Part shown: positions 8,044 to 46,897 of the stretch, piece by piece | How positions within the stretch are numbered: position 1 is the stretch's first letter | Layout: each line of letters begins with the position of its first letter | Source: Akkermansia sp. RCC_12PD | GTDB lineage: Bacteria > Verrucomicrobiota > Verrucomicrobiia > Verrucomicrobiales > Akkermansiaceae | NCBI RefSeq assembly: GCF_036417355.1 | Contig: NZ_CP143889.1 | Coordinates: 2,294,001 to 2,358,000, forward strand | Reading direction: 5' to 3' | DNA: 64,000 nt | Position numbers and translations under genes: made by a program | Notes under the pieces: model-generated | Database searches by the model: none | What the model was told of the DNA's origin: nothing | Seen by the model: the letters and a program-made list of their open reading frames with translations, nothing else

Positions 8044-8058
8044 GAGCAGGCCGGGAAA

Positions 8059-15006: not shown

Positions 15007-15064
15007 GTTGGTGCTCGAGAGGGGACTCGAACCCCTACGGTTTATCACCACTAGATCCTTAGTC
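15007..15064. repeat. Left attachment repeat (attL-side)
   Basis: A copy of the 3' portion of tRNA-Leu, from the encoded CCA end through the T-arm, variable arm and half of the anticodon arm. It lacks the 5' half of the tRNA and so is not a functional gene. It pairs with 45223-45280. Confidence 0.9.
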
Positions 15065-27729: not shown

Positions 27730-28154
27730 ATAGAATATATAATAACGAAATGATATTCATGGCCTGTATTGTCCAATTACTTAAAACTGAAAAATTGGAT
27801 ATTGCGACCTTATATCTTTTTTGCACCTTGTTAATTGATGATAATCTTAGGCTTATAATACACGATTCCGTTAATTTAGAAAAATGTACTAGTCGAGTTT
27901 GCTCTCATGCTCTTCTCACTCGTAAAATCACAGCATTTGGACCATATTTTATAAATGCCCTTGTAATTCTAAAGCAGTCTGACTATATAGTTATAAATTT
28001 AAACTACATTGAATCAACGCAAAAAGAATTTCCAAAAGGGAATCTCAAAAGTAAAAGATTGCAAAGAATACTACGTGAAGCAGAGCATTTATTTGAAATA
28101 TGCCATAATTTTTCGGCTAAAGATATGTATCGCAAATTTAATATACAGCTATGA
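27726..28154 (+). CDS. ABC-three-component-type middle component
   Basis: A small 142-residue protein between effector and ATPase genes, overlapping both by 4 nt (ATGA at each end). The N-terminal YNNEMIFMACIVQLLKTEKLDIATLYLFCTLLID could be a degenerate winged helix, as in middle components of ABC-3C and Lamassu-like systems. Those link the ATPase to its effector. It has no catalytic motif. The assignment rests mainly on position, size and the neighbouring DUF3732 ATPase. Confidence 0.55.
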   Translation: MNRIYNNEMIFMACIVQLLKTEKLDIATLYLFCTLLIDDNLRLIIHDSVNLEKCTSRVCSHALLTRKITAFGPYFINALVILKQSDYIVINLNYIESTQKEFPKGNLKSKRLQRILREAEHLFEICHNFSAKDMYRKFNIQL

Positions 28155-30022
28155 ATTTATATATTGCAAGCATAAGATTGTGGTTCAAGGGTTTTCTTGA
28201 AAATGAAGAGAACGCGATAACGTATCGCTTTGAGCCAGATAAAATAAATGTAATTACCGGAGATTCTTCTACTGGGAAATCATCTATACTCGGAGTTATT
28301 GATTATTGTCTTCTGTCAGATGCTCCAACAATTGTTGAAAACATAATTAATGAAAATGTTGAGTATTATGGTATAAACATTTATCTCAATGGGAAAAGTT
28401 ATATTCTTATAAGGAAAGCTCCTCATTTGGGGACAGGAACTCAAGATGTGCATTGGTCGAAACAGAAAGAATACCCAATCCCGTATACTCCGACTCATTC
28501 GGTGGGTGAAATGAAAGTTTTGCTTTCCGAGATGTTTCAGGTTCCAGATCATAATAAAAAAGTGGGACGAAAGAATATCCCTATGTCATTTCGACACTTT
28601 CTTCCGCTCAACTACTTGACTGAAGATATTATTTCATCTGCAAATACATATTTCGACACTGCCTTCTTCGTTGACAAGAGTTTCGACTCTTTTCTTAATT
28701 TTGCATTGGAATACGCCAATGGAATTCGTTGTCATAATAGTAGAGAAATAGAAGACAAAATTCAAAAAGCAGAAAAAGATTTAAAGCAATATCAAGAGAA
28801 TCACCTTAAGGCGCAAGTCGTTGAAAGAGAATATAAGGAAAGTCTTATTTCTATCTACAAACAGGCGTTCCAGCTTAATTTGGTTTCTCCTGATAATCTA
28901 TTTCTACAAGAGGACGCAGGAGAACTTAGACGCTATATTCAGCATACCATATCTGAGTATGACCAATTAATCAAAAATGATGAAGATACTACAAAATTAG
29001 AACGTCTGAAAAATCGCAAAGACCAGATTAAAGCAACTCTGAATACCTATGACTCTCTGTTATCAGAGATGAAGAGAAATAAGAACTCAGGCGCAAAAGT
29101 ACAGGACAGCTTAAAACCGATTAAGTATATAAAGAATCATATCGACGAGGTTGTAAGCTCGTCTGATACAATTGAACTTCTTAAGCTATTGGAGAAACAG
29201 CTTATTCAAATCAAGGAAGAGAATCCTATTCAGACGGAATTACCGGCAGACTTCAATTCAAGGTATGATGAATTGAATAAGGAACTTACTACTATTGAAG
29301 AGGAGTTAAGACATTTTTCCACTCTTCGTAAAACGATTGCTAACCCTAAATGGGTGAACCAAGCGGTAAGCCTTAAGTATCGTCTAAAAGATTTAAAAAA
29401 GCCTAATCCAGATACTTATCAATCAAGTGTTGAAGAAGCTAAAATTTCTAAATTAACTGCCTTAAATTCTCAGCTTGGACAAATCCACTTGATGCCACAT
29501 GACGTAAAGGTGGAATTGAATAAATCTATTAACGAGTATTTTCAATCTCCAAATGGTATGGTGGACTCTTACCCAGATTCTACCATGTTGTATGACGATG
29601 AGAACCGTAGAATCTCATTATTGAAAAATGGCGAACATTACCCCATCCGTAACATTGGTAGCAAGTCTAACTATATGTTTTTGCATCTTTGTTTCTTCCT
29701 TGGACTTCATAAGTCAATAAAGTCTCATCATTCTGAACAAGTTGGTTCGTTTCTTTTCATAGACCAGCCGAGTATGCCCTACTACGCTGATAAAGATATC
29801 CTCAATAATGATGACAGGAGACAATTGACGAAGGCATTCCGATTGCTGAATGACTTTATGAATGAAATGATTGGCGAGCTCGGAGAGCATTTCCAAATCA
29901 TTTTGATTGAGCATGCTGATGAATCGTATTGGAAGAACCTAGAATTTTACCATACAGCTAGGAAATTTTCCAAGACTGAAAATGGTGGATTAGTCCCTAA
30001 ATATATTTACGAGAAAAAATGA
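28151..30022 (+). CDS. DUF3732 SMC-like ABC ATPase
   Basis: A 623-residue SMC/Rad50-like ATPase. The N-terminal half-domain has INVITGDSSTGKSSILGVIDYCL (Walker A GDSSTGKSS, about 37-45). A long coiled coil runs from about 195 to 430 (EIEDKIQKAEKDLKQYQENH). The C-terminal half-domain carries the DUF3732 hallmarks IGSKSNYMFLHLCFFLGLH and the Walker B FLFIDQPSMPYY, then IILIEHAD. Such ATPases sense foreign or aberrant DNA and license an effector in ABC-three-component defence. Both ends overlap neighbours by ATGA. Confidence 0.85.
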   Translation: MNLYIASIRLWFKGFLENEENAITYRFEPDKINVITGDSSTGKSSILGVIDYCLLSDAPTIVENIINENVEYYGINIYLNGKSYILIRKAPHLGTGTQDVHWSKQKEYPIPYTPTHSVGEMKVLLSEMFQVPDHNKKVGRKNIPMSFRHFLPLNYLTEDIISSANTYFDTAFFVDKSFDSFLNFALEYANGIRCHNSREIEDKIQKAEKDLKQYQENHLKAQVVEREYKESLISIYKQAFQLNLVSPDNLFLQEDAGELRRYIQHTISEYDQLIKNDEDTTKLERLKNRKDQIKATLNTYDSLLSEMKRNKNSGAKVQDSLKPIKYIKNHIDEVVSSSDTIELLKLLEKQLIQIKEENPIQTELPADFNSRYDELNKELTTIEEELRHFSTLRKTIANPKWVNQAVSLKYRLKDLKKPNPDTYQSSVEEAKISKLTALNSQLGQIHLMPHDVKVELNKSINEYFQSPNGMVDSYPDSTMLYDDENRRISLLKNGEHYPIRNIGSKSNYMFLHLCFFLGLHKSIKSHHSEQVGSFLFIDQPSMPYYADKDILNNDDRRQLTKAFRLLNDFMNEMIGELGEHFQIILIEHADESYWKNLEFYHTARKFSKTENGGLVPKYIYEKK

Positions 30023-31044
30023 ATATTAGATTAGGAATTCCGAAATATGCCACCGTGCAAATGGTTGGTAATAAGGCCGACGGTGAAGGCATTACTTTTG
30101 CTACTGAAGTAGAAGATCTGTCGCTTGCAGTAGATTTCTTGACTATTTTGGTCAAGAACGTATTTAAGTTTGAGGTTTTGAGTCAGTTTGACTGCATTGA
30201 TTCTTTAGATTTGAATCCGACATATCGGTTTATCAAAGCCATTTTCGAAAAGGAAGATGAGTTTGTCAAACAGTCCAATAATTTGGCTCGACACTTGTAT
30301 GATCAAAGCATTCATCCCAATATAAAAAATGGTGAGTTTTATGTAATCTATTTAACAGATTGTGGCATTAATGATGATTCTGTAGATGGTATCTTGTTAT
30401 TGAAAACAGAAATAAAAGACAAATTCTTAACAGTTGCCAATGAAAATGGTAACCTTTCTATTGTTCCTCAAGTGGGAATTAGTACGAAGCATATAGATAA
30501 AGGTTGTTTTATTCTCAATACAAAACCTGATGATGGTTATATCCTATCTATCGTTGATACATCAACAATTAGAATGGATGGACTTTATTGGACTAATAAT
30601 TTCCTTTATGCAAAGAAACTTGTTAATGACTTTCAGTTAACGAGAGATATAACATCTTTTTGCTCATCTGCAATCCATCAAATAGCAAAACAGTATCCCG
30701 AAAAAACAGTTGAGTTAGCCAAAGCTGCTCGGAATGTTGCTTTAATGTTACAGAATGATGGTGTAATGGTTAATACTTCCGAAATGCTTTCTGCATTATC
30801 TGTAGATGCCGAAATTGCCAATCAATTATCGAACTATAGACGAGACTATGAAAATAGAAATGGAGAAATCTCAGATTCTTTTCTTTGTGTATCCAATGCA
30901 GCAAAGAGAAAAGCTATTACAAAAGCAAATCTTATAAAACTTGGCTCTGATTTCGAAGTGAAAATTTTGGATCCTTCGACCGATATAGAACAAGGATACG
31001 ACAAAGAAAAAAGAAAGAACTATATTAAATTGTACTATCGCTGA
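30019..31044 (+). CDS. NdpA/YejK-like nucleoid-associated protein
   Basis: A 341-residue protein resembling the 37-kDa nucleoid-associated family (NA37/YejK). Relevant stretches are FYVIYLTDCGINDDSVDGILLLKTE, VGISTKHIDKGCFILNTKPDDGYILSIVD, YWTNNFLYAKKLVNDFQLTRDITSFC and the end KNYIKLYYR. Family members bind DNA or DNA-repair/topoisomerase proteins. Its start overlaps the ATPase stop (ATGA at 30019-30022), making it the fourth gene of the operon. Genome neighbours suggest it loads onto or recognises DNA for the ATPase or effector, which is inference. The 137 nt after it show no clear terminator. Confidence 0.7.
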   Translation: MNIRLGIPKYATVQMVGNKADGEGITFATEVEDLSLAVDFLTILVKNVFKFEVLSQFDCIDSLDLNPTYRFIKAIFEKEDEFVKQSNNLARHLYDQSIHPNIKNGEFYVIYLTDCGINDDSVDGILLLKTEIKDKFLTVANENGNLSIVPQVGISTKHIDKGCFILNTKPDDGYILSIVDTSTIRMDGLYWTNNFLYAKKLVNDFQLTRDITSFCSSAIHQIAKQYPEKTVELAKAARNVALMLQNDGVMVNTSEMLSALSVDAEIANQLSNYRRDYENRNGEISDSFLCVSNAAKRKAITKANLIKLGSDFEVKILDPSTDIEQGYDKEKRKNYIKLYYR

Positions 31045-31181
31045 TATAAATAACACTTCTGACGAGTCACGGATTCTGGAACACTACCGGCGAGTTGAAG
31101 GACGGTATGCATACGGCTTGTGTGTTTATAGGTTTCCATACGATAAATAGAAGGTGTTGATTTTTTTGGATTTATATCTTT

Positions 31182-32822
31182 TTACCTATTTAATTTGAAG
31201 GAACTATTTTGTTGTGTCGTCATTTCCAAATCCGTCTTGCCCGAAATAGCTGGATCGCGGGGGGTGCCATCTGGATAGGTGGTTTTATAGATGCCGAAGT
31301 CCTGGGCTTTTTTCTCCAGAGTATGGGTGATTTTGCTCGAAGCGGCGTTGATACGTAGGCGGCTTTCGCTGAGGTAGGAAGGATTGTGGAGGGGATGAGG
31401 GAATATCCTTGAAAGGAGCTGAGGGGATAACGGCTGGAGGATATCGTCGGAACAGGAGGCAGGATGATTTTGCTTCCAACGCTGAAACCATGTGGGTGAA
31501 GTCAGGTGTTTATATTGCTGAGCAATGCCTTTTCCCTTGATGGCATACACGCGTTCCGCCGCCAGCAGGGTCATGTTGTCAAATTGTTGTTGTTTGCGCC
31601 ATGATTGTTTGATTTGCTCCAGTTCGTCGGTACTTTTGGCTGCGGCGATGGTTTCCAGCGTTTTACGAGTTGAGGATTCCTTTTTTTGTGCCAAGTTGAG
31701 GAACATGCGACTGTAATAATCGTGGAATTCCCGAGAGGCTCGGTTGAAGTGCTCTATTTCAGGCTCCTGAAGCAATTTCTCTACAAGTATATCTTCAGGC
31801 GTTTTTTGGATTTCCTGCGTCAGGAGTCCTGTTTCATAGAGCCCCCATGTGAGGGCGCCTCCTGTGACGAGCGTTGCGCCTGCGAGGGCCAGAATTCTGT
31901 ACCGAAGTTTGTGGATGCGCTCTCGATGGAGAGCATGGTTCATTCCTGACAACCACGCTTCCGGCGAGGGTGAACGGTCGTCCCGTTCTATGGAAAGGTT
32001 TTGGATGAGGTATGGTGTAATACTCGCCAGCGTCTTTTCTTTTTGAACCAATGATTTCAATAGCTCTTGAGCCTGTGCGTCGCCAATTTCTTCGGATATT
32101 GTTTTCCAGAGGCAGGTGGTCGCCAGTTCATAGAAGCACGCTGCAAGGGAGTATTGGTCAGCACGTATGTCGGGGGCAGCGTTTTCCGTAAATAATTCGG
32201 GAGCCGAGTACGCAGAGTGTGCCAGTATATTGACTGTGCCATGAGGAGGGCGCTGAGATGCGGTGCCAAAATCGGCCAGAACGGGCTGTCCTTATTTTGT
32301 GAAAAGGATATTGCCGGGCTTGATGTCCAGATGGACGATGTGATTCCGGTTCAGGCAGTCGAGAGCCGAGACCAGAGCCTGAAGCCATGAGATGATGGAG
32401 CTTGGAGGAATGCGTTTGCCCGAGTGGATAACATCCCGCAGGGTTCCACCCTCAAGAAGAGGCATCACATAAAAGCAGGTTGTGGGCGAAAGACTGAATA
32501 CCCTGTGTATCTTGATGATGGAGGGATGTTCCAAGGAAGCAATCAGCCGGGCTTCCCTGATGAACTGGTTGACGGATTCGGCAAAGATGTGTTCCGTGTC
32601 TTCATCCAGGGGAATCAGGCAATGGGAGTCGGCATCTCTGGTGCAAAGCTCCTGAGGATAGTGTTCCTTGAGGACGACCTTTCTGTCCAGCGTCTTGTCA
32701 TGGGCCAGATACGCAATGCCGTTCGCCCCGTGACCGAGGACACGTTCGATCACGTAGGGACCGACCTTTTGGGCGGAAGGGAGGGAAACGAGTGCTTCGT
32801 GCATGGCGGATGAACGATTCAA
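31182..32822 (-). pseudogene. Ser/Thr protein kinase interrupted by one stop codon
   Basis: A single kinase frame runs from the ATG at 32822 (or 32804) to 31182, broken only by TAA at 32294-32292, where the relatives have glutamine (NILFTK-stop-GQPVLADFGTA; chromosomal kinase: NILLTEQGTPVLIDFGAA). The kinase core is otherwise complete: LGHGANGIAYLA, VVLKEHYP, HLDIKPGN and ADFG. A transmembrane helix (ILALAGATLVTGGALTWGLY) and an extracytoplasmic tail follow. A CAA to TAA change explains the break. Either it is recently dead or the stop is read through at low level. The HTH gene 25 nt upstream probably shares the transcript. Confidence 0.8.
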
Positions 32823-32847: not shown

Positions 32848-33261
32848 TCAATCCTTGTCTTCCGAGAATTCCTCGTGCTCGATTTCATCGACAAGGGAAG
32901 AAGCAGGAGAACCTTCACGAACGATTTCATTGATTTTTGTCGCCAGAAAATCGGTCAGCGTCATTTTGCTGTCGAGAGCCTTGCGCTCCAGGGCCGCCTG
33001 GACATCCGGCGGCAGTTGAAGGATCACGCGGGACTCTGTTTCCACCTTCACGGACGGGAGCGTCACGGGCATCTCCATCATCAGGGAACGGATGATGTGC
33101 TCCTTGACCTCCGGAATCTTTTTCTTGGCCATCCAGTTGTAGACAGTCACTTCACTGACGAAGCACTGCTGTGCGAGCCACCTGTAGTCCAGTCCACGAG
33201 CCTTGAGCCAACGCTTGACGTCGGCTTTCAAATCCGTCTGTGGTTTGGAGTCTGAACTCAT
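32848..33261 (-). CDS. DNA-binding regulator: XRE-like HTH plus ribbon-helix-helix-like segment
   Basis: A 137-residue protein from the ATG at 33261 (MSSDSKPQTDLK). Residues about 10-45 (DVKRWLKARGLDYRWLAQQCFVSEVTVYNWMAKKKIP) form an HTH. Later, SRVILQLPPDVQAALERKALDSKMTLTDFLATKINEIV has the strand-helix-helix look of an RHH/antitoxin-type dimer domain, followed by an acidic tail. It lies just upstream of the broken kinase gene and divergent from the small ORF at 33442, so it may control both. The target is unknown. Confidence 0.65.
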   Translation of the reverse strand: MSSDSKPQTDLKADVKRWLKARGLDYRWLAQQCFVSEVTVYNWMAKKKIPEVKEHIIRSLMMEMPVTLPSVKVETESRVILQLPPDVQAALERKALDSKMTLTDFLATKINEIVREGSPASSLVDEIEHEEFSEDKD

Positions 33262-33441
33262 GATAGAGATATTAGCTTTCCTGCTATTGTTCGTCAACAT
33301 CCAAGCCATGAATGCCAGAGAAATAGGCAGATAGAATAAGAGATTGAGAGCTAGATTTCTCGGATGGATAATATCTTTTCTTCCATTATAGCTATAATAC
33401 TATTTGACAATACACTCTAAAACGATATAAAAAATATCCGT

Positions 33442-33645
33442 ATGGCGAGTATGCAGTGTGATATCCCCGAATTGCTCGAGAAGCTGAGCGATGAAGCCAG
33501 ACTGTATCTGTTGAAGCGTATGGCCTCCCGTAACCTTACCCTTCGGCAGGTACTTCTGGAGATTGTCATTGCGATAAGCAGAGAGAGGGCATCTATCCCG
33601 GAAAGAAGCACTGTCGTACATCCGCTCCAATCCGCATCCCGCTAA
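33442..33645 (+). CDS. Small helical hypothetical protein, 67 aa
   Basis: MASMQCDIPELLEKLSDEARLYLLKRMASRNLTLRQVLLEIVIAISRERAS is mostly helical; the NLTLRQVLLEIV part may be a short DNA-binding or dimerisation helix. It is the first gene of the plus-strand run to 41558, 24 nt before a secreted zinc-ribbon gene. No family recognised. Confidence 0.45.
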   Translation: MASMQCDIPELLEKLSDEARLYLLKRMASRNLTLRQVLLEIVIAISRERASIPERSTVVHPLQSASR

Positions 33646-33669
33646 TCCCACCAAAAGGAACCCACGACA

Positions 33670-33909
33670 ATGAAAACAATCCGTATCACTCTCATGGCTC
33701 TGATAGCAGTTTCCTGCTGTGCCTTACTTGCACATGCAAGTCTGTCCATCTCGAACACCGCCCCTATTCCTCATGAAGGTCTGAAATGCCAACAAAGCAA
33801 TGGAGTCAAAGTGTGTCCCACCTGCAATGGAAGCGGCAAGTTCGGCAACAACACCTGCATCAACTGCGGCGGCAAGGGCATTGTCCGCACAAACGGGCAG
33901 AGGCTGTAA
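33670..33909 (+). CDS. Secreted small zinc-ribbon protein (DnaJ-type CxxCxGxG)
   Basis: A 79-residue protein with a signal peptide (MKTIRITLMALIAVSCCALLAHAS) and a C-terminal CPTCNGSGKFGNNTCINCGGKG. These are two CxxCxGxG-like units as in the DnaJ/tryptophan RNA-binding inhibitor type zinc domain. It is probably exported and folds around one zinc. Its partner is unknown; it sits between a helical ORF and an AT-rich ankyrin-like gene. Confidence 0.65.
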   Translation: MKTIRITLMALIAVSCCALLAHASLSISNTAPIPHEGLKCQQSNGVKVCPTCNGSGKFGNNTCINCGGKGIVRTNGQRL

Positions 33910-33942
33910 ATTCTTAAAAAATAGCCCTAAATTTTGATTTCC

Positions 33943-34809
33943 ATGAAAAAAATTATTATCATTATATCAATTATTGTTTTAATCATTTTACCTATTATAG
34001 GATTTACAAATCACAGATACGATAATTCTGCATTTGAGAAAATTACTAAGAAGGATTTCCCATATCGTTCTTTCCGAATGAAAATAGGGGAAGAACTGAA
34101 TATAAAAAATGCCATAAACACAGCAAAAGAAAAAATAGAGAAGGCCTCATCACTAAGGTCCGTATATGATGATTTAAAAATGAAAGGAGGAAAAGTTGAT
34201 CGATGGATTATTAGCCAATTAGGAGAAATTGTCAATAACCAAAAATCTATTGATTATGTGTATTCCTCTGATTGTACTTTACTTACACATACAATTGTAA
34301 AAATGGGAAATGGGAATAAAGATTTTCGAATTGAATATGAGAATATTATTTATTCATTATTGAAAGAGGGCGCAGATTCCAATTTATCATATCCATTAAG
34401 AGCTGCAATAGATTCAAGAGGAAAATATTTGTCGGTTGCTCTTTTATTATGTGGAGCGGATCCTAATCAAGTACGCGAACAAAGCGATTCTGAATATCAC
34501 TATTTAAAACACTATTTCCCTAAAACAGCTCTGGCTACAGCCATCGATGAAGATTTATTGATTCCTTCAAAACTAGTTCACAGATCTGTTCCTTTATTCA
34601 GTGAAAATTTGAATGATGGTAAATTTGAATTTATTAAATTATTGATTGCTGCAGGTGTTGACGCAAATATAGAAAAAAGGGATGTTTCCGAAAAATTGAT
34701 AAAATACTCTGAAAACAGAGATAATTCCTATACATCTCCAACAGAAATATTAAATATGTTACTTTTTGTGGGATTTGATACACGAGATCTTTCGGCATTA
34801 GATCATTAG
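33943..34809 (+). CDS. Membrane-anchored ankyrin-repeat-like protein, very AT-rich
   Basis: A 288-residue protein from the ATG at 33943. The first helix (MKKIIIIISIIVLIILPIIGF) is a membrane anchor. Later segments (SLLKEGADSNLSYPLRAAIDSRGKYLSVALLLCGADPNQV, KLLIAAGVDANIEKRDV) have the LLxxGADxN signature of ankyrin repeats. They probably mediate protein binding outside the membrane. The gene is much more AT-rich than both neighbours, suggesting a separate origin. It has no coupled neighbours. Confidence 0.65.
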   Translation: MKKIIIIISIIVLIILPIIGFTNHRYDNSAFEKITKKDFPYRSFRMKIGEELNIKNAINTAKEKIEKASSLRSVYDDLKMKGGKVDRWIISQLGEIVNNQKSIDYVYSSDCTLLTHTIVKMGNGNKDFRIEYENIIYSLLKEGADSNLSYPLRAAIDSRGKYLSVALLLCGADPNQVREQSDSEYHYLKHYFPKTALATAIDEDLLIPSKLVHRSVPLFSENLNDGKFEFIKLLIAAGVDANIEKRDVSEKLIKYSENRDNSYTSPTEILNMLLFVGFDTRDLSALDH

Positions 34810-34908
34810 AGAAATAATGTAATTTATTAAAACAAATTTTCATATCAACTTTTAAATATAAGTAGAATAACTCACAGAAAACAATAGTTAATCTAACCCT
34901 TCGTCATT

Positions 34909-36879
34909 GTGAAGAACATTTTCTTTTGCTTCATCGGATTATCAGTTTTTTCAGCCTTCCTCTGTGAAGGAGTCGGTATCGTCGCATGGAAGGATCAAGG
35001 TTTCCATGAGGACTCCATGGCCAAAATCGCAACATACAGCAGGAGAAAGTTGAGTGGAAACGAAGGGGTATTCAACGTCAACGGAAAAGATATCTATTTG
35101 CCTGCGAATCTCTATTGGAGCATCGATATTCCCAATAGTCTTCCTCAGGAACTCTCCGATTCGACTCAATATGAAATGCTCTTGAAGCAAAAATACGAGA
35201 TGGGCGTATTTCGGAAACGCTTCCCGAAATCTTCCGCCATTCTCGATCCATGGCTGAAGCAATTGCAAAAATACCAGGATAACTATGATTCCGGAAAGTA
35301 CTTTGTTGACGGCGCTTGGATGGAAAAAGCCGTTTATGAACAACAGCAGGCCGAATTGAGGGAGAAGAGAAAGCAAAGCCGCTTGAAAGAAGAACAAAGG
35401 AGGAAAGAGGCAGTCAATCATACTGTTGAGACAGATTCCAGTTCTGTCGAAAGAGAAGAAAAATCCGGAATACCGTACGCAGACGGTTCCTTGAAGGAAA
35501 TGAGTGGCGGGAGTGCTGAGGGAGTCGGGATAGTTGTCAAAAGGTTGGAACAGAACAAAAAGTCTATGGATTCCGCAGGGCAGAATCAGGCACAGCAGCT
35601 CATTCAATCCATCAAACGACTTTTTACCGCGCAGTCTTCCTACAAGAAGGCCCTGCAGCAACAAGCCGGAGCCAAGGCCAAAGCGGAACAATATGAACGC
35701 CAGGCGGAGGATGCCATGAGGCCGAGCCCATTGACGGGAGAACCTAACTCCTATATGGCCAATAATGCACGTAAGAAAGCAAGGCAGGTCATCCTGAATG
35801 CGGAACATGCTCTTTCCAACGGAAAGAGGGAACTTCTTCAGGCATTGAAGCAAAGCGATACCCTGGCTTGTTCTCTGTATAAGGACATTCCTCAGGACGC
35901 AGAAAACCTGGCTCTTGCTGTGACAGCGATTGCCGAATCACACGATGGAGAGATTGATTTCAGAAGCCGCTTTGAAGAAGCTAAGGAAAAGGAGGACAGG
36001 CGGAAGGAAGAAATTGCTCGTGAACAGGAAGAGAGGGAACAACAACTTGCCCGTGAGAAGGAAGAAAGGCTTCGGGAAGAAAGAGAACGAGAAGAGCAAC
36101 GCCTGAGGGAAAGGCGGGAAGAAATCTCTCGTGAAAAGGAGGAACGAGCTCAACAGATTGCGCGTAAGAAGGAGGAAGAACGAAAAGAAGCAGAGGAGAA
36201 AATGGAAGCAGCAAAAGCTCCTTCCAATCCATCTCCGTCAACAGTTCCCAACCAGCCTGCGATATCGGTCAATCCGCCGGTTCAGTACATGAGCGATACC
36301 GATGCCAACCGGATGATATACCGAACCTTGGGTTCTCCTGATCCGCAGGCACTGGAAGGAATTGATGAAAAGTACAGGAACGTCATTCAGACGTCTACCG
36401 ACCCGGTAGCGATCGCAAGAGCCGCTGAAGCAGCCTATGCCGATAAAGGAAACATTGATCCTGCCATGCGCGGGTACCTGACCGATATGGCCAAATACCG
36501 GGCTCTTTCGAACAAAGCAGGACAGGGATCAGCCTATCATCCCAGTTTGTCCAGAGCCTTTCCCTCGTTACCCTCAGTCATGGAAATGGGAGATTATTCA
36601 TGGGAGGAAGAGGTTGACAAAATGATAGCTACTTCAAAGGAAACCTATAGCCCCAATTTATCTCCGGCCTGCAGGCAACGAGCCCGGGACATTATCAAAG
36701 CGAGAAGCCTCATTATGGGTGGTTCTATGGATCGCCCCGAAGATATTTATCAGAAACTTGGCATTTCAAAGGACACGGATCCCAGTCCGCTTTCCGGGAT
36801 GACTTTCTCGTTCATTTTCCTGTGTCTCTTGATTTTAGTTCCTTTAGGAATTTTTTGTAGATTGCGCAAAAAATTATAA
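34909..36879 (+). CDS. Secreted or periplasmic coiled-coil protein with C-terminal membrane anchor
   Basis: A 656-residue protein using a GTG start at 34909. It has a signal-like N-terminus (MKNIFFCFIGLSVFSAFLCEGVG). A long charged coiled coil of E/R/K repeats covers about 355-430 (REREEQRLRERREEISREKEE), followed by a proline-rich linker and a folded C-terminal part. It ends with one transmembrane helix (SFIFLCLLILVPLGIFCRL). The length and layout suggest an elongated envelope-spanning rod. It is followed by two GYF-domain membrane proteins and may work with them, which is inference from order. Confidence 0.6.
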   Translation: MKNIFFCFIGLSVFSAFLCEGVGIVAWKDQGFHEDSMAKIATYSRRKLSGNEGVFNVNGKDIYLPANLYWSIDIPNSLPQELSDSTQYEMLLKQKYEMGVFRKRFPKSSAILDPWLKQLQKYQDNYDSGKYFVDGAWMEKAVYEQQQAELREKRKQSRLKEEQRRKEAVNHTVETDSSSVEREEKSGIPYADGSLKEMSGGSAEGVGIVVKRLEQNKKSMDSAGQNQAQQLIQSIKRLFTAQSSYKKALQQQAGAKAKAEQYERQAEDAMRPSPLTGEPNSYMANNARKKARQVILNAEHALSNGKRELLQALKQSDTLACSLYKDIPQDAENLALAVTAIAESHDGEIDFRSRFEEAKEKEDRRKEEIAREQEEREQQLAREKEERLREEREREEQRLRERREEISREKEERAQQIARKKEEERKEAEEKMEAAKAPSNPSPSTVPNQPAISVNPPVQYMSDTDANRMIYRTLGSPDPQALEGIDEKYRNVIQTSTDPVAIARAAEAAYADKGNIDPAMRGYLTDMAKYRALSNKAGQGSAYHPSLSRAFPSLPSVMEMGDYSWEEEVDKMIATSKETYSPNLSPACRQRARDIIKARSLIMGGSMDRPEDIYQKLGISKDTDPSPLSGMTFSFIFLCLLILVPLGIFCRLRKKL

Positions 36880-36918
36880 AAGGATCATGAATATCAGCAC
36901 TCAATTTTCAGATCAAAG

Positions 36919-38043
36919 ATGAAAAAATATTTTATTTGCGACGATTTCGGGAATCAGCAAGGCCCCTATTCCGAGCATGTGCTTCAAGTTCTCCACGAGG
37001 AGAGCTCCATACGGTCTGATACCCGTATTCGTGAAATTCAGTCTTCTGAATGGGGCACATATTCGGACATTGCCGAAAGCGCGTTGCAGGATAAATCCCG
37101 GAAGGATATGGATGAATCCTCCTACCTGATTACTTTGCCGGATGGAGAAACCGAAGGCCCTTATACCAAAGAACAAATTAAAGCCCTGTATCGCAATGGT
37201 CGATTGGACGGAAACCTTCTTTGCTGCAAGAGGGGCGCATCCTCATGGGAGCCACTTGAAACGTTAATCGGAAAAAATTCTCAACAGCCTGTTTCTCCTG
37301 AAATTTCAGGAGGAGTTATGGAAGGAAATATTCCATCTTTCTCAAGTGAAGGCAACGAGAGTTCTCGTTTAATGCCGGAAATGTCACCCATACCTAATAC
37401 ATCGTCACCATCAAGAGAAAGCACTTCATATGGTAATCCTCCATTACAGGACGAAAGAAGTACTCTCTCTGGGCAGGAGTATAACATGAAAGCGTTCTGG
37501 GTAATGACTATGCTGTATATTTTGTCCCCGTTGTTGATTATTATAGCATCAGCAACTTATGCCGGTTATGCCCAGTTCTCATTAACGATTTTAGGCATAG
37601 GAGTATTGTTCTTTCTGTATGCACAGATTTCATTACTGATTAATACGTGGAAGGCGTGGAAATGCATACAGGCAATTACCCAATATGGTCGTCGCATCCC
37701 CTCAGCGGGGCAGGCCGTGGGGCTGTTGTTCGTTCCCGTGTTTCATTTGTACTGGATGTATGTCTGCTTTGTAGGATTGGTCGACAATGCCTCCTGGCTT
37801 GCCCGCGTCTCTCAGCAAACCAAACTTAGACTGAAAGCATGGCCGATGTTTGCCTTTGTGCTATTCACTCAACTCACTTTCGGAAGCTGCATCATCACCA
37901 ATGGATTTCTACCTGAATTTCGACCCTTTTTTGATCTCCTTTCCTGGCTTTGGTTACCATGGCCGATCGCCGTGTTCTGGTACACTGAAAGAATTATTCA
38001 GTCATTTCCTCGTCCTCAAGGAAGGAAAAGGAAATCTTCATAG
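36919..38043 (+). CDS. GYF_2-domain multi-pass membrane protein
   Basis: A 374-residue protein. Two GYF_2-type modules lie at the N-terminus: CDDFGNQQGPYSEHVLQVL...EWGTYSDI and LPDGETEGPYTKEQIKALYRNGRLDGNLLCCKRGASSWEPL. Each has the G-P-Y/F, W-x-P pattern. A serine-rich linker and about five membrane helices follow (from MKAFWVMTMLYILSPLLIII to AVFWYTERI). GYF_2 domains are believed to bind proline-rich peptides or partner proteins. It lies 14 nt before the PrsW-type gene, which has the same N-terminal modules, so the two likely act together. Confidence 0.75.
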   Translation: MKKYFICDDFGNQQGPYSEHVLQVLHEESSIRSDTRIREIQSSEWGTYSDIAESALQDKSRKDMDESSYLITLPDGETEGPYTKEQIKALYRNGRLDGNLLCCKRGASSWEPLETLIGKNSQQPVSPEISGGVMEGNIPSFSSEGNESSRLMPEMSPIPNTSSPSRESTSYGNPPLQDERSTLSGQEYNMKAFWVMTMLYILSPLLIIIASATYAGYAQFSLTILGIGVLFFLYAQISLLINTWKAWKCIQAITQYGRRIPSAGQAVGLLFVPVFHLYWMYVCFVGLVDNASWLARVSQQTKLRLKAWPMFAFVLFTQLTFGSCIITNGFLPEFRPFFDLLSWLWLPWPIAVFWYTERIIQSFPRPQGRKRKSS

Positions 38044-38057
38044 AAAGAGGAAGCAAG

Positions 38058-39446
38058 ATGAAGTCTTATTTGATCAAGCTACCGGACGGAACTCAAATGG
38101 GGCCGTTCCCATGGGAGAAGATAGATAAATTGTATGCTTCCCGTAGAATCAGCGGGGATGATCTGGTATGGACGGAAGGAATGCCAGCATGGCTTCCTCT
38201 TCGCGAAGTTCAGAAACAGAAAGCCGAGCCGCATCCACAACAAACGGATGCATCAGACGATTCCAGGCAGGGGAAGAAGGAGGAGTCTTATTTTCTTTCA
38301 TCGGGAGGAGAAAGTCGAAAGGGGCCATATACGTTGAAGGAAATAAGCAACTGGTACCACACCGGGCAGCTTTCTCCTGCGGCTTTCCTGTGGAAGGAAG
38401 GGATGACGGAATGGGTGAGAGTGGGAGAATTTATCAGCAGCCATCAGGGGGACAGCTCCTTTTGGGGGAGTATTTTCCGAATGCTGTCATCTCTAACTGG
38501 GCTTTCTCCCATAGAAAAGTTCAGTTTGAAAAGCATGTTCAAGGGGATGTTTCGTCGCAGGCCGGAGCAGGAAAGGATAGATTTTTTTACGTCAGGCGGG
38601 TCGAAATCTACCCCCTCATTGGAAGAAATATCTACGGATTGGCCCGCGCCATGGATTTTCATCCGTGTTCTCGGCCTTTCCCTGTTGATGTGTATCGGGT
38701 GCCTAAGCATGCTTGAGGCATTTAATAACAGTCCTGTTGTTGCTGGTGCGGCTAGTTTAGGGCTGTTGTTTGCCATAAGTTTTGCAGTGCCCTTTTCCGT
38801 TCTTGTCTTGTTTGCGGAATTTAATGTCAGAAGGAACATCTCGTGGTATTCGATTATCGTCCTAGTGTTAGGTGGAGGAACTTTGTCTTTGATTGTTACA
38901 TTGATTTTGAACGATCTTTCCGGTAATCCAAGGGCTGCTTACTGGGCCGGTCCTATTGAAGAACTCGCAAAACTTATTGTTGTCATTTTCTTTGCCCGAA
39001 AATTCTTTCTGAATGGACAAATTTTAAACGGCATGTTGTGTGGAGCCGCTGTAGGCGCCGGTTTTGCTGGTTTTGAAACAGCGGGTTATATCATGAGTAC
39101 TGAATATGGTTCCGATCCATTAGACACGGCGGTACTGAGAGGAATTCTTGCTCCCTTTGCTCATGTTTCCTGGTCGGCAATTATGGCAGGGGCATTCTGG
39201 CTTGCTATGAAGAAACAACGGCAGAACAGCACTCCCCCTATCCTTCAGCCCTCTTTTTGGCGAATTGCTGTTATCCCGATAGGGCTTCACATGTTTTGGA
39301 ACAGTCCTTTGTTGATGAAGTCGGAATTATTGGTCTTATGCAAATATGGGATATGTGCCGTCATCTGTTGGTGTATGGTCTTTTTACTTCTCAATGAAGG
39401 GTTGATCCAAGTCAGGCAGGCAAAGGAGCATAAAATCGACCTCTAG
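38058..39446 (+). CDS. PrsW-family intramembrane metalloprotease with two GYF_2 domains
   Basis: A 462-residue protein. Two GYF_2 modules come first (LPDGTQMGPFPWEKIDKLYASRRISGDDLVWTEGMPAWLPL; SRKGPYTLKEISNWYHTGQLSPAAFLWKEGMTEW). A PrsW-type membrane domain follows: EELAKL in AGPIEELAKLIVVIF, GFAGFETAGY, APFAHVSWSAIMAG and IGLHMFWNS. These are the conserved acidic and histidine residues of the family that cleaves anti-sigma factors and similar membrane substrates. Fusion of GYF_2 adaptor domains to PrsW suggests substrate recruitment through proline motifs. The neighbouring GYF_2 membrane protein or the coiled-coil protein are candidate partners (inference). Confidence 0.85.
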   Translation: MKSYLIKLPDGTQMGPFPWEKIDKLYASRRISGDDLVWTEGMPAWLPLREVQKQKAEPHPQQTDASDDSRQGKKEESYFLSSGGESRKGPYTLKEISNWYHTGQLSPAAFLWKEGMTEWVRVGEFISSHQGDSSFWGSIFRMLSSLTGLSPIEKFSLKSMFKGMFRRRPEQERIDFFTSGGSKSTPSLEEISTDWPAPWIFIRVLGLSLLMCIGCLSMLEAFNNSPVVAGAASLGLLFAISFAVPFSVLVLFAEFNVRRNISWYSIIVLVLGGGTLSLIVTLILNDLSGNPRAAYWAGPIEELAKLIVVIFFARKFFLNGQILNGMLCGAAVGAGFAGFETAGYIMSTEYGSDPLDTAVLRGILAPFAHVSWSAIMAGAFWLAMKKQRQNSTPPILQPSFWRIAVIPIGLHMFWNSPLLMKSELLVLCKYGICAVICWCMVFLLLNEGLIQVRQAKEHKIDL

Positions 39447-39716
39447 AAGCATGTACCGGTATGCTGTGCCCCCGCTATACACCAGAGCCATTTTTGTCAA
39501 CAGGCAGGAGGATGCTGTATTTCAATAGCGAGGACACTCCTCAAGTACGGCGGTTTAGCAACTGGCATCATCCATCTTTCAAGTTCCTTCCCCAAAGTGG
39601 AGCAATGGCTGTCCAACCTCATCACTCTGGAGGAGTCCGTAACTCTGGTAATTTATTTTATACCATGCCGTATGCTCCTGCCGGAGAAACGCATGTCATC
39701 AACAAGGAAAACAACA

Positions 39717-40040
39717 ATGAAAAACAGACCATCCATTACCGAAGAGGAGGATCATAAAAACAAGGAGGTGCCGGACATTTGTCTCGAAAGGACTACTGTA
39801 CACTATCAGGATGAACTTCTCAGGTGTATAGAGCAAGAGTGCGGATCTGTGATTCCCCATGTTCACGGCAAGCTTGTTCTTTTGAGAAGGAGCAAGGTGC
39901 TTGCCTTCTTTCTCTTGCTGATCCTCTTAGCGACTGGTGTCATTGTCTGGCATTGCTTTACAAATCAGGCAGATCGGGACATCTATGAATATCAGCATGT
40001 TCCTGAAAAAAATCCTATATGGTTACAAATAGCAATTTAA
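39717..40040 (+). CDS. Small single-pass membrane protein, 107 aa
   Basis: The ATG at 39717 (MKNRPSITEEEDHKNKEV) is preferred over 39597 because the same opening recurs in the mini-ORF at 40067. One transmembrane helix (VLAFFLLLILLATGVIVWHCF) follows a charged 60-residue N-terminal part. It begins the row of small membrane-protein genes that runs to 41558. Function unknown. Confidence 0.5.
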   Translation: MKNRPSITEEEDHKNKEVPDICLERTTVHYQDELLRCIEQECGSVIPHVHGKLVLLRRSKVLAFFLLLILLATGVIVWHCFTNQADRDIYEYQHVPEKNPIWLQIAI

Positions 40041-40066
40041 TAGGTCCACAAGAAAAGCAAGCAATA

Positions 40067-40126
40067 ATGAATAACAGACCAGTCACGATCGAAGAGGAGG
40101 ATAAAAAACAAGATTCTTTATCATGA
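40067..40126 (+). CDS. 19-codon leader-like ORF, truncated copy of the preceding gene's start
   Basis: MNNRPVTIEEEDKKQDSLS resembles the opening of the protein encoded at 39717. Its TGA overlaps the ATG of the next gene (ATGA at 40123-40126), so it may serve as a coupling leader or be a duplication scar. Confidence 0.35.
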   Translation: MNNRPVTIEEEDKKQDSLS

Positions 40127-40470
40127 AAGAGAAACCAATCAAACCAATGAAACAACCATGGCCCCGGAGTGCGAAAATCACTGTGTGGGTACTGAGCATC
40201 TTGCTCCTTGCCGGCTTCGCCTGTTGGAGAGAGATGGCGCATCGCAATATCAAGCAGGAACAAGTAGCAGCTGAACTCTTGAGTGCAAATATCGAGCTGA
40301 AAAAAGAGAATGATATAATCAATTGGGTTTTCGAGCCAGAGCTAAATACCTCTGATCCTACACATCCGACAGAAGAATATATCAGGCGGCAGGAGGATCG
40401 GTTCCGTACACTCGGCCTGGCAGGTACTTACCGACATATATGGTCGGATAAGTATCCAGTCAAAAAATGA
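40123..40470 (+). CDS. Small membrane protein, paralogue 1 of a tandem family
   Basis: A 115-residue protein with basic head (MKEKPIKPMKQPWPRSAKITVWVL), one transmembrane helix and a soluble tail ending GTYRHIWSDKYPVKK. Head and tail recur in the next gene, and the head in the two after it. Orientation (positive inside) would place the tail outside the cytoplasm. No enzymatic motif is present. Family not recognised. Confidence 0.6.
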   Translation: MKEKPIKPMKQPWPRSAKITVWVLSILLLAGFACWREMAHRNIKQEQVAAELLSANIELKKENDIINWVFEPELNTSDPTHPTEEYIRRQEDRFRTLGLAGTYRHIWSDKYPVKK

Positions 40471-40502
40471 ATTAAAATCAATCTGTAGAAACGAAAGATA
40501 CA

Positions 40503-40823
40503 ATGAATAAATGGCCCCTCAGTGCAAAGATTACAGTATGGGTTCTGGGTGTGGCGTTCTGTGCCGTTTTTGCCTGCACGGGAGAGACGGCTCATCGTAA
40601 CATCAAGCTGGAACAAATTACAGACGAATTGGCGAATGCAAATGTCGAGCTGAAAGAAAAGAACGATATATGTAATTGGGGTATCGAGATAAAGCAGAAT
40701 TGTACTGATCCACCATTTCCAACAGAAGAATATTTCAGGCAGCAAGAGGTTTTATATCGCAAACTCGGCCTGGCAGATACTTATCGACATATATGGTCGG
40801 ATAAGTACCCAGTCAAAAAATGA
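40503..40823 (+). CDS. Small membrane protein, paralogue 2
   Basis: A 106-residue protein: MNKWPLSAKITVWVLGVAF, then a transmembrane helix, AHRNIKLEQITDELANANVELKEKNDI (helical) and the same ending DTYRHIWSDKYPVKK as paralogue 1. The two are similar along their length and arose by tandem duplication. It is 32 nt downstream of paralogue 1. Confidence 0.6.
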   Translation: MNKWPLSAKITVWVLGVAFCAVFACTGETAHRNIKLEQITDELANANVELKEKNDICNWGIEIKQNCTDPPFPTEEYFRQQEVLYRKLGLADTYRHIWSDKYPVKK

Positions 40824-40903
40824 ATCAATCACAACAAACTGCTGAAGAACGGCTTCAGCAGGTGGTGATTTTTGAACAACTCAACGAAAGGACATTCCTT
40901 ATC

Positions 40904-41158
40904 ATGAAAGACAAACCAATCAAACAACAATGGCCCCGCAGTGCGAAAATCACTGTTTGGGTGCTGGGTATCCTATTAGCTGGATTTGCTGTGTTATATT
41001 ATACTGCACTAGAAGCGTCACTAGAAGTGCCACCACTACAAGTGTCACCACTAAAGTTCAACATTATGGACGAGCTTGACGCGAAAACCATAGAGGCCTT
41101 GCGGCAGCGAATACGTCAAAAAGATCAGATCCAACAAGAAACGTTAAGAGAATTGTAA
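40904..41158 (+). CDS. Small membrane protein, paralogue 3
   Basis: MKDKPIKQQWPRSAKITVWVLGILLAG followed by a short helical tail, 84 residues. The ATG at 40904 is chosen because the upstream GAACAACTCAACGAAAGGA is shared with the leader of paralogue 4, where it is non-coding and holds the ribosome-binding site. An alternative ATG at 40820 overlaps the previous stop (ATGA) and would add 28 residues. The tail has diverged from paralogues 1 and 2. Confidence 0.55.
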   Translation: MKDKPIKQQWPRSAKITVWVLGILLAGFAVLYYTALEASLEVPPLQVSPLKFNIMDELDAKTIEALRQRIRQKDQIQQETLREL

Positions 41159-41166
41159 TCTCGATC

Positions 41167-41208
41167 CAACACTCCCGGCGCAGCCTCTGTGGCGGGAGTG
41201 TTGCTTTT
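41167..41208 (+). terminator. Hairpin terminator between paralogues 3 and 4
   Basis: CAACACTCCCG (41167-41177) pairs with CGGGAGTGTTG (41193-41203) and is followed by CTTTTG. It ends 30 nt before the ATG at 41238. Confidence 0.65.
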
Positions 41209-41237
41209 GAACAACTCAACGAAAGGAGATTCTTATT

Positions 41238-41558
41238 ATGAAAGACAAACCAATGAAACAACCGTGGCCCCGGAGTGCCAAGATCACTGTGTGGGTGCTG
41301 AGCCTGCTATTAGTTCCAACGCTGTTCTACGCCATTGCCGTAGAACCTAATCCTTGCGGATGTGAGAGTGAAATTATAATTGATCCCCCTAAGCAAAGCT
41401 GCCTGCCTGTAGCAGACTTACTCGCTGGGCGTCTCAGGGAACAGAGGATCAAGCATCCGGAGGATTTTCCTGCACCTAAGACAGAAAATGAGGATTTCCT
41501 CAAATCTATCTTGGAAGCGGACGATACAGTCGAGTATTTGAAATCTATTGGGTATTGA
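41238..41558 (+). CDS. Small membrane protein, paralogue 4
   Basis: A 106-residue protein with the family head MKDKPMKQPWPRSAKITVWVLSLLL and a transmembrane helix. A new tail contains a CGC motif (NPCGCESEIIIDPPKQSC) with three cysteines that could form a disulfide or bind metal. A good ribosome-binding site, AAAGGAG, precedes it. It is closed by a strong terminator (41569-41610) and then the IS element. Confidence 0.6.
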   Translation: MKDKPMKQPWPRSAKITVWVLSLLLVPTLFYAIAVEPNPCGCESEIIIDPPKQSCLPVADLLAGRLREQRIKHPEDFPAPKTENEDFLKSILEADDTVEYLKSIGY

Positions 41559-43583: not shown

Positions 43584-44912
43584 TCATGTGTTCTGGCAAT
43601 TTTGAAAATCTCCTTCCGGAAGGAGATTCCAAAAACGCTCTGCCATCTCCTGATCCACGCCAGACAGATTCATGTAGCGGTGCATGATCTGAGTCGAACT
43701 GGAATGTCCCATTTCCAGCTGGAGCTGGGGAATGTTCCGATGAATTAGGACGTGGTAGCTGGCAAAGGTATGGCGCAAGGCATCGTTAGGCCAGCGTTTC
43801 CCATTAGCATCCCACCCGGCTCTGTAACGAAGACCGGCCCATCGAACGGGCCACTGGGGCGGACATATGGAGTCATCCTCCTGATGAGGCGCCATGCGCA
43901 GCCACGCTTCCAATGCCGGACAGATGTTGACCTGTCGAGTTCCTCCCGTCTTGGAGGCTCTACTTCGTACTTTGATGACTTTCTCCGGGGTATCCAGGAA
44001 AATGTCATTCCAGGTCAGCCGGGTTACTTCCTGCGGACGAATCCCGGCGAATGCCATGATCGCCAGAGGAGCCAAGCAACAGGTAAGGTCGAGACGCGCT
44101 CCCTCTACCGTTTTGCGGCTTGTCCGGGGCATTCCTTTTTCCTCTCTTGTCGGAGGACGGCAAGCCTGGAACAGTCCTGCAATTTCTTCCGGAGTCAGGG
44201 GATGGATTTCGTGTTCATGAATGGCAATGATGTCAAGAGCCTGCGCCGGGTTTTCATGGCACCATTTCCGTTTGATTCCGAAGTTGAAGATGCTGCTGAG
44301 AATTTTCCGGGCATCATTCTTTTGTTTATCCGGCTTGAAGGTCCTGCCAATCATCTTCCGGCAGTCGTCCGTCGTCAGCTGAGAAAGGAGCGTCACAGCA
44401 AAATCCGGACAGCATTTGCCGATGCGTCCCGTTATGTAACGTATTTGGGAAAGTGTGCTTTCTCTGCGTTTTTGGACGTGCTGTTTTACTTCCAGCAATT
44501 TTGATACGGCGTCACAAAAAGGAATGGATTTGCTGTCTCTCTTTTCCTGTTCCATCCCCATCCGAACAAGACGTCTGATTTCCGCTACGTCATTCACCTG
44601 TTCCAAAAGAGGAGCGAGCTCCTTGATGACCCCAAAGACATCAAGGCCATAAGGTTCCAGAATCTGCTGTGCTTCCCGGAATAGCTGCGCCTCGGAAGCA
44701 GAGACTTGAAACACGCTGCTGCCTTCCGCATTTCTTCTTGTCCTCAACTGAACGGCAAAGGCGTTGCCTTCCCGTTGTGTCGTAAAATAACGATTCTGCC
44801 TCTTGCCTGTTTCCGACAATTCAGCCGGTATGGAAACACGGTAGACCGCTTTCCTTTTTTGAGCCTTGCGTTGTTCATCAAGCACGCATCGTATGACAGA
44901 AGGTTTGGGCAT
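43584..44912 (-). CDS. Tyrosine recombinase (island integrase)
   Basis: A 442-residue phage-type integrase. The C-terminal catalytic domain shows the first arginine in FAGIRPQEVTRLTW, a lysine in SKTGGTRQVNI, the H-x-x-R-like block LRHTFASYH, and MGHSSSTQIMHRYMNL with the nucleophilic tyrosine. The N-terminal half has a helical core-binding domain (LEVKQHVQKRRESTLSQIRYITGRI). It points away from the tRNA-Leu at 45225-45310 and would catalyse exchange at the att repeats. The putative arm sites lie at 15112-15138 and 45087-45112. Confidence 0.92.
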   Translation of the reverse strand: MPKPSVIRCVLDEQRKAQKRKAVYRVSIPAELSETGKRQNRYFTTQREGNAFAVQLRTRRNAEGSSVFQVSASEAQLFREAQQILEPYGLDVFGVIKELAPLLEQVNDVAEIRRLVRMGMEQEKRDSKSIPFCDAVSKLLEVKQHVQKRRESTLSQIRYITGRIGKCCPDFAVTLLSQLTTDDCRKMIGRTFKPDKQKNDARKILSSIFNFGIKRKWCHENPAQALDIIAIHEHEIHPLTPEEIAGLFQACRPPTREEKGMPRTSRKTVEGARLDLTCCLAPLAIMAFAGIRPQEVTRLTWNDIFLDTPEKVIKVRSRASKTGGTRQVNICPALEAWLRMAPHQEDDSICPPQWPVRWAGLRYRAGWDANGKRWPNDALRHTFASYHVLIHRNIPQLQLEMGHSSSTQIMHRYMNLSGVDQEMAERFWNLLPEGDFQNCQNT

Positions 44913-45188: not shown

Positions 45189-45216
45189 GCCCCTTAATTC
45201 TTTCAAATTAAGAGGC
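45189..45216 (-). terminator. Terminator for tRNA-Leu provided by the island
   Basis: GCCTCTTAATT and AATTAAGGGGC (read on the minus strand) form a stem with one mismatch around TGAAAG, followed by TTTCC. It lies just after the tRNA 3' end and replaces the displaced chromosomal terminator at 14960-14998. Confidence 0.5.
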
Positions 45217-45222
45217 TTATCA

Positions 45223-45310
<88 letters not shown>

Positions 45311-45414
45311 ATGGGTGCCTTAAGGCGGGGAGTTTTTAGCTCACGGAAGCGAATAGATCAAGCTTTTTTCTTCTTTTTTATCCTGCTGGTTCCGTTTTTT
45401 AAAGGCAGCTTCTT

Positions 45415-46721: not shown

Positions 46722-46736
46722 GGCGTCGTGTGTAAA

Positions 46737-46895: not shown

Positions 46896-46897
46896 GG

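Follow-up and report, generated by a model that had tools for sequence, protein, structure and literature searches.

A 64,000-nucleotide stretch of Akkermansia sp. RCC_12PD (contig NZ_CP143889.1, positions 2,294,001 to 2,358,000), referred to here as the window, holds three adjacent genes that encode a coiled-coil protein, a membrane protein with paired GYF_2 modules (the family formerly named DUF4339) and a PrsW-type protease preceded by a second such pair (Table 1). All three lie on the plus strand, separated by 39 bp and then 14 bp. Their adjacency, and the presence of two GYF_2 modules in each of two neighbours, had been claimed in an original prediction made from the letters alone; both points are confirmed by the open reading frames (ORFs) and by Pfam, one of the four modules falling under the Pfam cut-off. 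In the 374-amino-acid (aa) middle protein, GYF_2 is matched at E 3.8e-14 in two stretches, and the N-terminal pair is followed by about four transmembrane (TM) helices that are weakly DUF4328-like (sub-threshold match, E 0.036); it is called GYF-4TM below. The 462-aa protein, GYF-PrsW, matches GYF_2 twice at E 2e-24 and PrsW-protease (PF13367) at E 3.2e-24, with 86 bits against a cut-off of 23.5, and is the sole PrsW-family match of this genome at E <= 0.001. When the whole genome was scanned, three of these modules exceeded the Pfam cut-off at 49.7, 44.5 and 37.0 bits, and the first module of GYF-4TM reaches 22.8 bits, under the cut-off of 25.8.

The GYF-PrsW protease and its relatives

The protease was placed in an alignment of 51 PrsW proteins, hand-chosen from 80 loci plus earlier loci with near-duplicates and some others omitted, in 49 of which PrsW is recognised by Pfam (E <= 0.01). 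Four residues (E302, K305, E340 and H411) are identical in all 51 proteins, and E301, F339, H369 and W414 are kept at 90% or more, E301 being the first glutamate of the AGPIEELAKL motif. Judged by sequence, the 462-aa protein has intact PrsW family motifs and is a predicted protease by family membership. In its AlphaFold2 model (predicted local distance difference test score, pLDDT, 90.8), residues ~1-56 and residues ~76-130 each adopt a GYF fold, and eight long helices occupy the stretch from residue 199 onward. The best Z among the Foldseek-ranked chains was obtained with gamma-secretase APH-1 (Z 11.8, 189 residues aligned, 4.1 Å), a value tied by 7tm3_6, a chain of a ribosome-translocon complex; a Z below about 13 would not alone prove the fold of a helical bundle, and the APH-1 match is in line with the family assignment by sequence. 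PrsW has been described as distantly related to APH-1 (PMC3482391, section 9). GYF chains score Z 5.5-7.6 against the model, and none of the 50 structure rows was described as a PrsW or CAAX protease chain, which is uninformative either way.

The topology of the protease was predicted from the mean net charges of its loops over the 51 proteins. Loops 2-3 and 4-5 are positive (+0.96 and +2.24), as is the C-terminus (+0.8), and loops 1-2, 3-4, 5-6 and 7-8 are negative (-0.04, -0.49, -0.96 and -0.24). The best fit to these charges is a protein with both termini inside, so that the GYF modules are predicted to be cytosolic.

When the N-termini of the same 51 proteins were searched with our own GYF profile and CxxC pattern, GYF modules were found in 33, a double CxxC zinc ribbon (ZnR) in 17, neither in one (L149) and both in none; by Pfam, 33 carry GYF_2, 13 carry Zn_Ribbon_1 and one has a match of FHA/YscD type. 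GYF is probably an exchangeable, cytosolic module on PrsW. Carriers of GYF-PrsW span several phyla, with Akkermansia, Prosthecobacter, Pedosphaera, Thermoguttaceae, Singulisphaera, Terriglobia and Kineosporiaceae among others, and, by label, Listeria fleischmannii, Sporolactobacillus and Marinococcus; these taxa are those of the record titles, many of which belong to metagenome bins with possibly wrong labels. By these sequence matches the fusion is recurrent, not unique to this genome. Two tandem GYF-PrsW genes after a gene with two GYF modules were also observed at L087:7279-11012, and a tandem occurs in L089 too.

It has been reported that PrsW can be fused to PilZ, cNMP-binding, FHA and Zn-ribbon domains, and that such proteins may be signalling peptidases (Zhang et al. 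2012, PMC3482391, section 9), GYF being absent from the fusion domains named in that section. On this basis, the GYF-PrsW architecture falls under a known theme, with a module that was not found reported. No paper linking a GYF domain with PrsW, linking Akkermansia with a GYF domain, or tying GYF to MglA and focal adhesion was found in open-access PMC, a weak absence. The original prediction had spoken of a new regulatory arrangement. What stands is a GYF-PrsW protease with intact motifs beside a tandem-GYF protein; the claim of newness is too strong, as GYF-PrsW occurs in many genomes and phyla and PrsW-sensor fusions were already described in 2012 (PMC3482391, section 9).

The GYF modules of the protease model match the GYF domains of human GIGYF1/2, yeast Smy2 and Myxococcus GltJ. 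It is known that aromatic residues of GYF domains form a proline pocket. At the eukaryotic G-Y-F site the window modules carry R-R-I, G-Q-L and G-R-L, with S-S-I in the sub-threshold module, and the canonical aromatic ligand surface is absent, Y and F being replaced in all four.

The coiled-coil protein and its C-terminal anchor

No Pfam or NCBIfam match over cut-off was found for the 656-aa coiled-coil protein. Its predicted layout comprises a signal or anchor (residues 1-22), an N-domain of beta structure plus a helical hairpin (~23-140, without Pfam match), an 80-residue helix (351-430), a disordered proline-rich linker (~431-459), a helical C-region and a TM helix (632-650) followed by the basic tail RLRKKL. 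The structural model is only fair (pLDDT 72.9; predicted template modelling score 0.33), and a fold search with it gave nothing at E <= 0.001, mostly long-helix look-alikes. The same C-terminal TM helix, followed by RLRKKL, NVRKKM or RLRRKL, is found across the three orthologues, namely the window protein and those of the two other genomes that hold the unit (see below). As an N-terminal signal or anchor is combined with a C-terminal TM helix and basic tail, the coiled-coil body is predicted to be exported. A proline is conserved in the TM helix (VPLG, FPLG, IPLC), and an (S/T)PL-x-G run precedes the helix; helix breakers favour intramembrane cleavage. No C-terminal sorting-signal (CTERM) family stands among the NCBIfam matches of the protein, and a layout of motif, TM helix and basic tail is present in all three orthologues.

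The proline-rich linker is the least conserved of ten stretches, with 19% identity over the three orthologues and gaps in 10 of 32 columns, followed by the TM helix (21%), the signal peptide (27%) and the tail (33%); the N-domain, residues 200-345 and the C-region reach 60%, 75% and 61%, respectively. All three linkers hold 7-8 prolines per 40 residues, and the PPG motif is absent from all three orthologues.

Conservation and genomic setting of the unit

At E <= 1e-20, the middle protein was detected in three Akkermansia genomes: G000, which is that of the window, G015 and G185. The full triad is present in all three, and because those of the two other genomes are orthologous, with protein identities of 68-84%, the arrangement is more than chance. 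The conservation of the three-gene order, which the original prediction had put forward for checking, is supported: the order is kept in every genome that holds the genes, these are only 3 of the 76 Akkermansia genomes, and the version of G027 is reshuffled. In this last genome, of the same taxonomic order and another family, a GYF-PrsW gene, a GYF+TM+Sel1 gene and the gene for a secreted, weakly Sel1-like protein stand in a row. The N-domain of the secreted protein shares 30% identity with that of the coiled-coil protein along 169 residues, with E values of 2e-9 in the pairwise comparison and 4e-6 in the genome search. It is the one N-domain copy of G027 by a profile that includes that copy, and lies 1.3 kb past GYF-PrsW, a closeness whose chance in a 5.9-Mb genome is, by a rough estimate, of the order of 0.1%. 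In G127 a single N-domain gene stands directly before a GYF+TM gene. Of the 239 genomes of the order, 17 gave an N-domain match, and the one in G201 (L175) is doubtful: it looks like chance, lacks the shared motif and reads like a sigma factor. With GYF-PrsW as query, matches at E <= 0.001 were obtained in 28 of 39 genomes, counting that of the window, many of them by GYF only, and the fusion itself occurs in ten genomes besides the window's.

A small helix-turn-helix (HTH)-like protein and a Ser/Thr protein kinase are encoded divergently from the operon. A single in-frame stop, the 177th of 547 codons, interrupts the kinase frame of the window; full-length kinases are present in L029 (G015) and L161 (G185), and the G015 orthologue matches Pkinase at E 4.4e-30. 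Among the 24 top-ranked HTH matches in the genus, 20 have the kinase within 2 kb, which in L039 and, at a contig end, in L196 is only a short fragment; in two of the four loci without kinase (L190, L194) the HTH gene is near a contig edge. A GYF gene stands on the divergent side within 8 kb in 11 of the 24. GYF genes occur in all 76 Akkermansia genomes, and such a neighbour is expected in at most ~4-6% of loci (a rough figure from 482 GYF domains in these genomes); the resulting binomial value of 2e-8 is overstated, since islands that are orthologous do not count as independent cases and a GYF locus supplied the query. At least four operon types were distinguished: that of the window, that of L039, L181, L182, L184 and L185, that of L179 and L180, and that of L193. 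A fifth, L082, found via PrsW, contains kinase, HTH, Sel1-like, CsgG-PEGA-like, GYF-TM and GYF-PrsW genes. Relatives of the middle protein in L179 and L180 (TM part, E 7e-11 and 1e-11) are partnered by a one-TM GYF protein and not by PrsW, so that the parts of these operons are shuffled. Two further observations concern these kinase and HTH genes. The window holds two more kinase relatives, at 1664-4474 and 5410-8043. In L039, L181, L182, L184, L187, L190, L193, L194 and L195, a protein with 'FTCPxCG' close to its start, whose L039 copy has no Pfam match, is encoded directly divergent from the HTH gene.

The triad is carried by an element of ~30 kb (window 15007-45310) bounded by repeats of a tRNA-Leu 3' end, of which the left copy is probably an attachment site. 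GC content is 0.35-0.49 over most of the window from 12 to 44 kb, with one 2-kb block at 0.56; the first 10 kb of the window and its part past 46 kb have 0.56-0.63. In G004, 4.4 kb separate the window flanks 1-11579 and 45201-47116, and apart from the tRNA repeat the element interior has no DNA match there; in G049 and G078 the stretch by the same tRNA is without DNA match to the element. In G040, pieces 31177-31378 (the kinase end) and 39665-39833 (the gene after the triad) stand side by side at the tRNA, so a similar element may have sat there and lost its middle. The G015 triad (0.48 Mb) is far from its tRNA site (2.6 Mb), and the triad is therefore not tied to that site. Carriage on a mobile element would account for the patchy distribution of the triad in the genus. 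The element also encodes an LmuB-like ATPase (PADLOC, E 4.9e-77); positions 28151-31044 hold this gene and then a 341-aa gene without PADLOC match, possibly Lamassu-type defence genes.

Within the element, the ankyrin gene upstream of the triad is probably the first gene of its operon. A promoter and terminator scan of 33200-40200 gave counts near those of shuffled sequence (14 against 12.0 and 11 against 6.9). Four paralogous 'QPWPRSAKITVWVL'-type TM ORFs span 40123-41558 on the plus strand downstream, and look-alike ORFs occur in islands L181 and L184.

Table 1. Features of the window at and around the three-gene unit
Feature	Position	Strand	Basis or remark
Coiled-coil protein gene, 656 aa, GTG start	34909..36879	+	ORF call
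GYF_2 x2 membrane protein (GYF-4TM), 374 aa	36919..38043	+	ORF and Pfam
GYF_2 x2-PrsW protease, 462 aa, eight helices	38058..39446	+	ORF, Pfam and model
291-aa gene upstream of the triad, N-terminal TM, one ankyrin repeat	33934..34809	+	21.3 bits against cut-off 21.1
HTH-like small protein, divergent from the operon	32848..33309	-	HTH_17 sub-threshold, 18.5 of 27 bits
Ser/Thr protein kinase gene beside the HTH gene	31182..32822	-	Frame with one in-frame stop
Small TM ORFs downstream of the triad, four paralogous, 'QPWPRSAKITVWVL'-type	39597..41558	+	
Integrase-like gene, right end of the element	43584..44912	-	Tyrosine-recombinase-like by reading
Left copy of the tRNA-Leu 3' end	15007..15064	.	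58 bp, two mismatches to 45223-45280
tRNA-Leu(AAG), 3' end as right-hand attachment repeat	45225..45310	-	

Readings of the unit and comparison with known systems

Computation shows the domains and fold, the intact motifs, the topology as predicted, the linkage of the genes and the boundaries of the element. With moderate confidence, we propose that the unit works by regulated intramembrane proteolysis with GYF as a cytosolic docking or sensing module, the triad forming the membrane portion of a signalling operon of modular make-up on the integrative element. Beyond the computed features, we infer a docking role, a substrate and a control by kinase and HTH protein. Through its GYF pair, GYF-PrsW would be docked to a partner in the cytosol, or would sense one, and this partner would control the protease; in the sister proteases the zinc ribbon would do this job. 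The role is likened here to the recruitment or sensing suggested for Zn-ribbon and FHA versions of PrsW (PMC3482391, section 9). The GYF-4TM protein, with docking modules of the same kind, may be a co-receptor or scaffold that shares the cytosolic partner. The exported, anchored coiled-coil protein would be the likeliest substrate or surface sensor, and cleavage at its C-terminal anchor could release the protein or switch a signal. The divergent kinase-HTH pair probably controls the operon. An extended version, which we consider speculative and rather unlikely, would envisage a family of mobile, kinase-HTH-headed operons for envelope signalling in Akkermansia. In these, cytosolic GYF modules would be a common docking code that brings several GYF membrane proteins, including the protease with its APH-1 fold, together on one cytosolic ligand, the protease would shed its own exported coiled-coil protein, and GYF and Zn-ribbon would be interchangeable tags on PrsW proteases throughout bacteria.

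The proposed regulated proteolysis is supported by the intact PrsW motifs, the APH-1-like model, the loop charges, the alternation of GYF and zinc ribbon, the linkage of the three genes, the GYF neighbours of the kinase-HTH pairs and the published view of PrsW-sensor fusions as signalling peptidases. Several results weigh against regulated proteolysis in such an operon. For the protease itself, the score against the NCBIfam PrsW equivalog NF033739 is 28.6 of 225 bits, and a plain Foldseek search with the model gave nothing at E <= 0.001, its best matches being GYF domains. Loop 6-7 (mean -0.43) and the segment before TM1 (mean net -1.31, mean K+R 6.0) break the charge rule. As to partners, no sigma or anti-sigma family was matched in the seven ORFs scanned around the operon, the G027 relative of the coiled-coil protein is without C-terminal anchor, and no GYF or PrsW gene was detected in 15 of 17 N-domain loci screened with our own profiles (three of these 15 being only ~4 kb long), the exceptions being L161 of G185 and L177 of G127. 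By a crude criterion, a type-I C-anchored partner was recognised in 5 of 249 neighbour ORFs in 30 GYF-PrsW loci, a count that omitted the G185 locus; of the five, only those of the window and L029 are the coiled-coil protein. The same criterion found none among 165 neighbour ORFs in 17 ZnR loci, and a general co-occurrence of such partners with GYF-PrsW was tested and not found. Several GYF-PrsW genes stand alone beside an infC or GH35 gene, and L179 and L180 are truly without kinase.

Some of these observations would suit GYF-PrsW being a general quality-control protease for membrane proteins, its gene neighbourhood resulting from island shuffling and not from a pathway of its own. In several Akkermansia genomes the stand-alone genes sit among housekeeping genes, the PrsW subfamily has a wide distribution, and GYF genes are found throughout the genus. 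We regard this explanation as somewhat unlikely, since the gene order is kept in three genomes, in G015 away from the tRNA-Leu site used in the window, and in G027 all three kinds of component are again found together.

It can also be asked whether an anti-phage or conflict system, in which the protease releases or activates an effector, has the triad as one of its arms. The triad shares its element with the LmuB-like ATPase, dynamin-like GTPase and Hsp70 genes are near the G015 triad, and the GYF2-PrsW gene of G007 has a DO-GTPase-like gene next to it and a GAP1-N2 gene after that, the latter scoring 58.5 bits against a cut-off of 24 and the former, for DO-GTPase2, 19.4 against 27. Planctomycete GAP1-N2 systems in which a paired-GYF protein is fused to trypsin or to a TM-rich region are described in PMC7159879. 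Against this stand the lack of PADLOC matches for the triad proteins, the kinase fragment and the HTH protein (the ankyrin protein matches weakly, E 0.0017) and the absence of a toxin-like domain from the triad proteins in Pfam and NCBIfam; moreover, the G007 GTPase and GAP1 proteins and the G015 dynamin and Hsp70 proteins are without relatives among the window ORFs. As no GTPase or GAP1 relatives occur among those ORFs, the conflict explanation is only a rival, and an improbable one. L030:7933-17979 (G007), with GYF+TM, GYFx2, GYFx2-PrsW, DO-GTPase-like, GAP1-N2 and other genes in a row, may itself be a GTPase-centric conflict system that includes a protease, and in G016 (L031, the same contig as L092) a GAP1 relative lies ~5 kb from a GYF-PrsW gene.

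The proposal of the original prediction that the proline-rich linker (~430-465) is the GYF ligand, the modules binding it and presenting the coiled-coil protein to the protease, is rejected as very improbable: the genes are adjacent and kept together in three genomes and the proline-rich stretch is present in every orthologue, but by predicted topology the linker is outside and the GYF modules are inside, it is poorly conserved and carries indels compared with 60-75% identity in the folded parts, it holds no PPG, and the modules themselves are without the canonical G-Y-F tripeptide. By compartment, the linker of GYF-4TM (~117-190), with nine prolines counted by eye and no PPG, would be a better-placed ligand candidate.

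The GYF/zinc-ribbon swap, together with an operon that holds a candidate substrate and a candidate co-receptor, offers a small testable system for two questions, the ligands of bacterial GYF domains and the substrates of PrsW proteases.

Of the proteins with a solved structure, GltJ of Myxococcus xanthus (PDB 7z3c) is the one whose GYF domain comes closest in sequence to the GYF modules (profile E 3.3e-10). GltJ is not known to be a protease, and the NCBIfam GltJ equivalog is matched with 32.5 of 450 bits. In Akkermansia, the fosmid that carries the salt-tolerance gene stlA has a Ser/Thr kinase gene and then DUF4339, TM2 and ankyrin genes within a stretch of low GC, StlA being a protein of 257 aa with a signal peptide and four TM helices (PMC3861447). 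Likened by description, this fosmid is possibly a relative of the kinase-HTH islands, from which it differs in that no PrsW appears in the part of Table 1 of PMC3861447 covered. An ORF of a GYF island, L039:8665-9489 on the minus strand, encodes 274 aa with four predicted hydrophobic helices and is StlA-like in size and layout, again compared by description only. The GAP1-N2 conflict systems (PMC7159879) share with the window the pairing of GYF modules with a TM-rich region, and the G007 GAP1-N2 gene is two genes from GYF2-PrsW; the window ORFs differ in lacking a GAP1 or DO-GTPase relative. With PrsW of B. subtilis and its family (PF13367), the window protease shares the family match, the E/E, FE and H motifs, the eight helices and an APH-1-like fold. 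It differs in its greater length, its N-terminal GYF modules and the lack of a sigma or anti-sigma partner in the ORFs scanned. Finally, the signalling PrsW fusions, as described in section 9 of PMC3482391, likewise carry a cytosolic accessory domain, and their Zn-ribbon versions are direct relatives of GYF-PrsW in our alignment.

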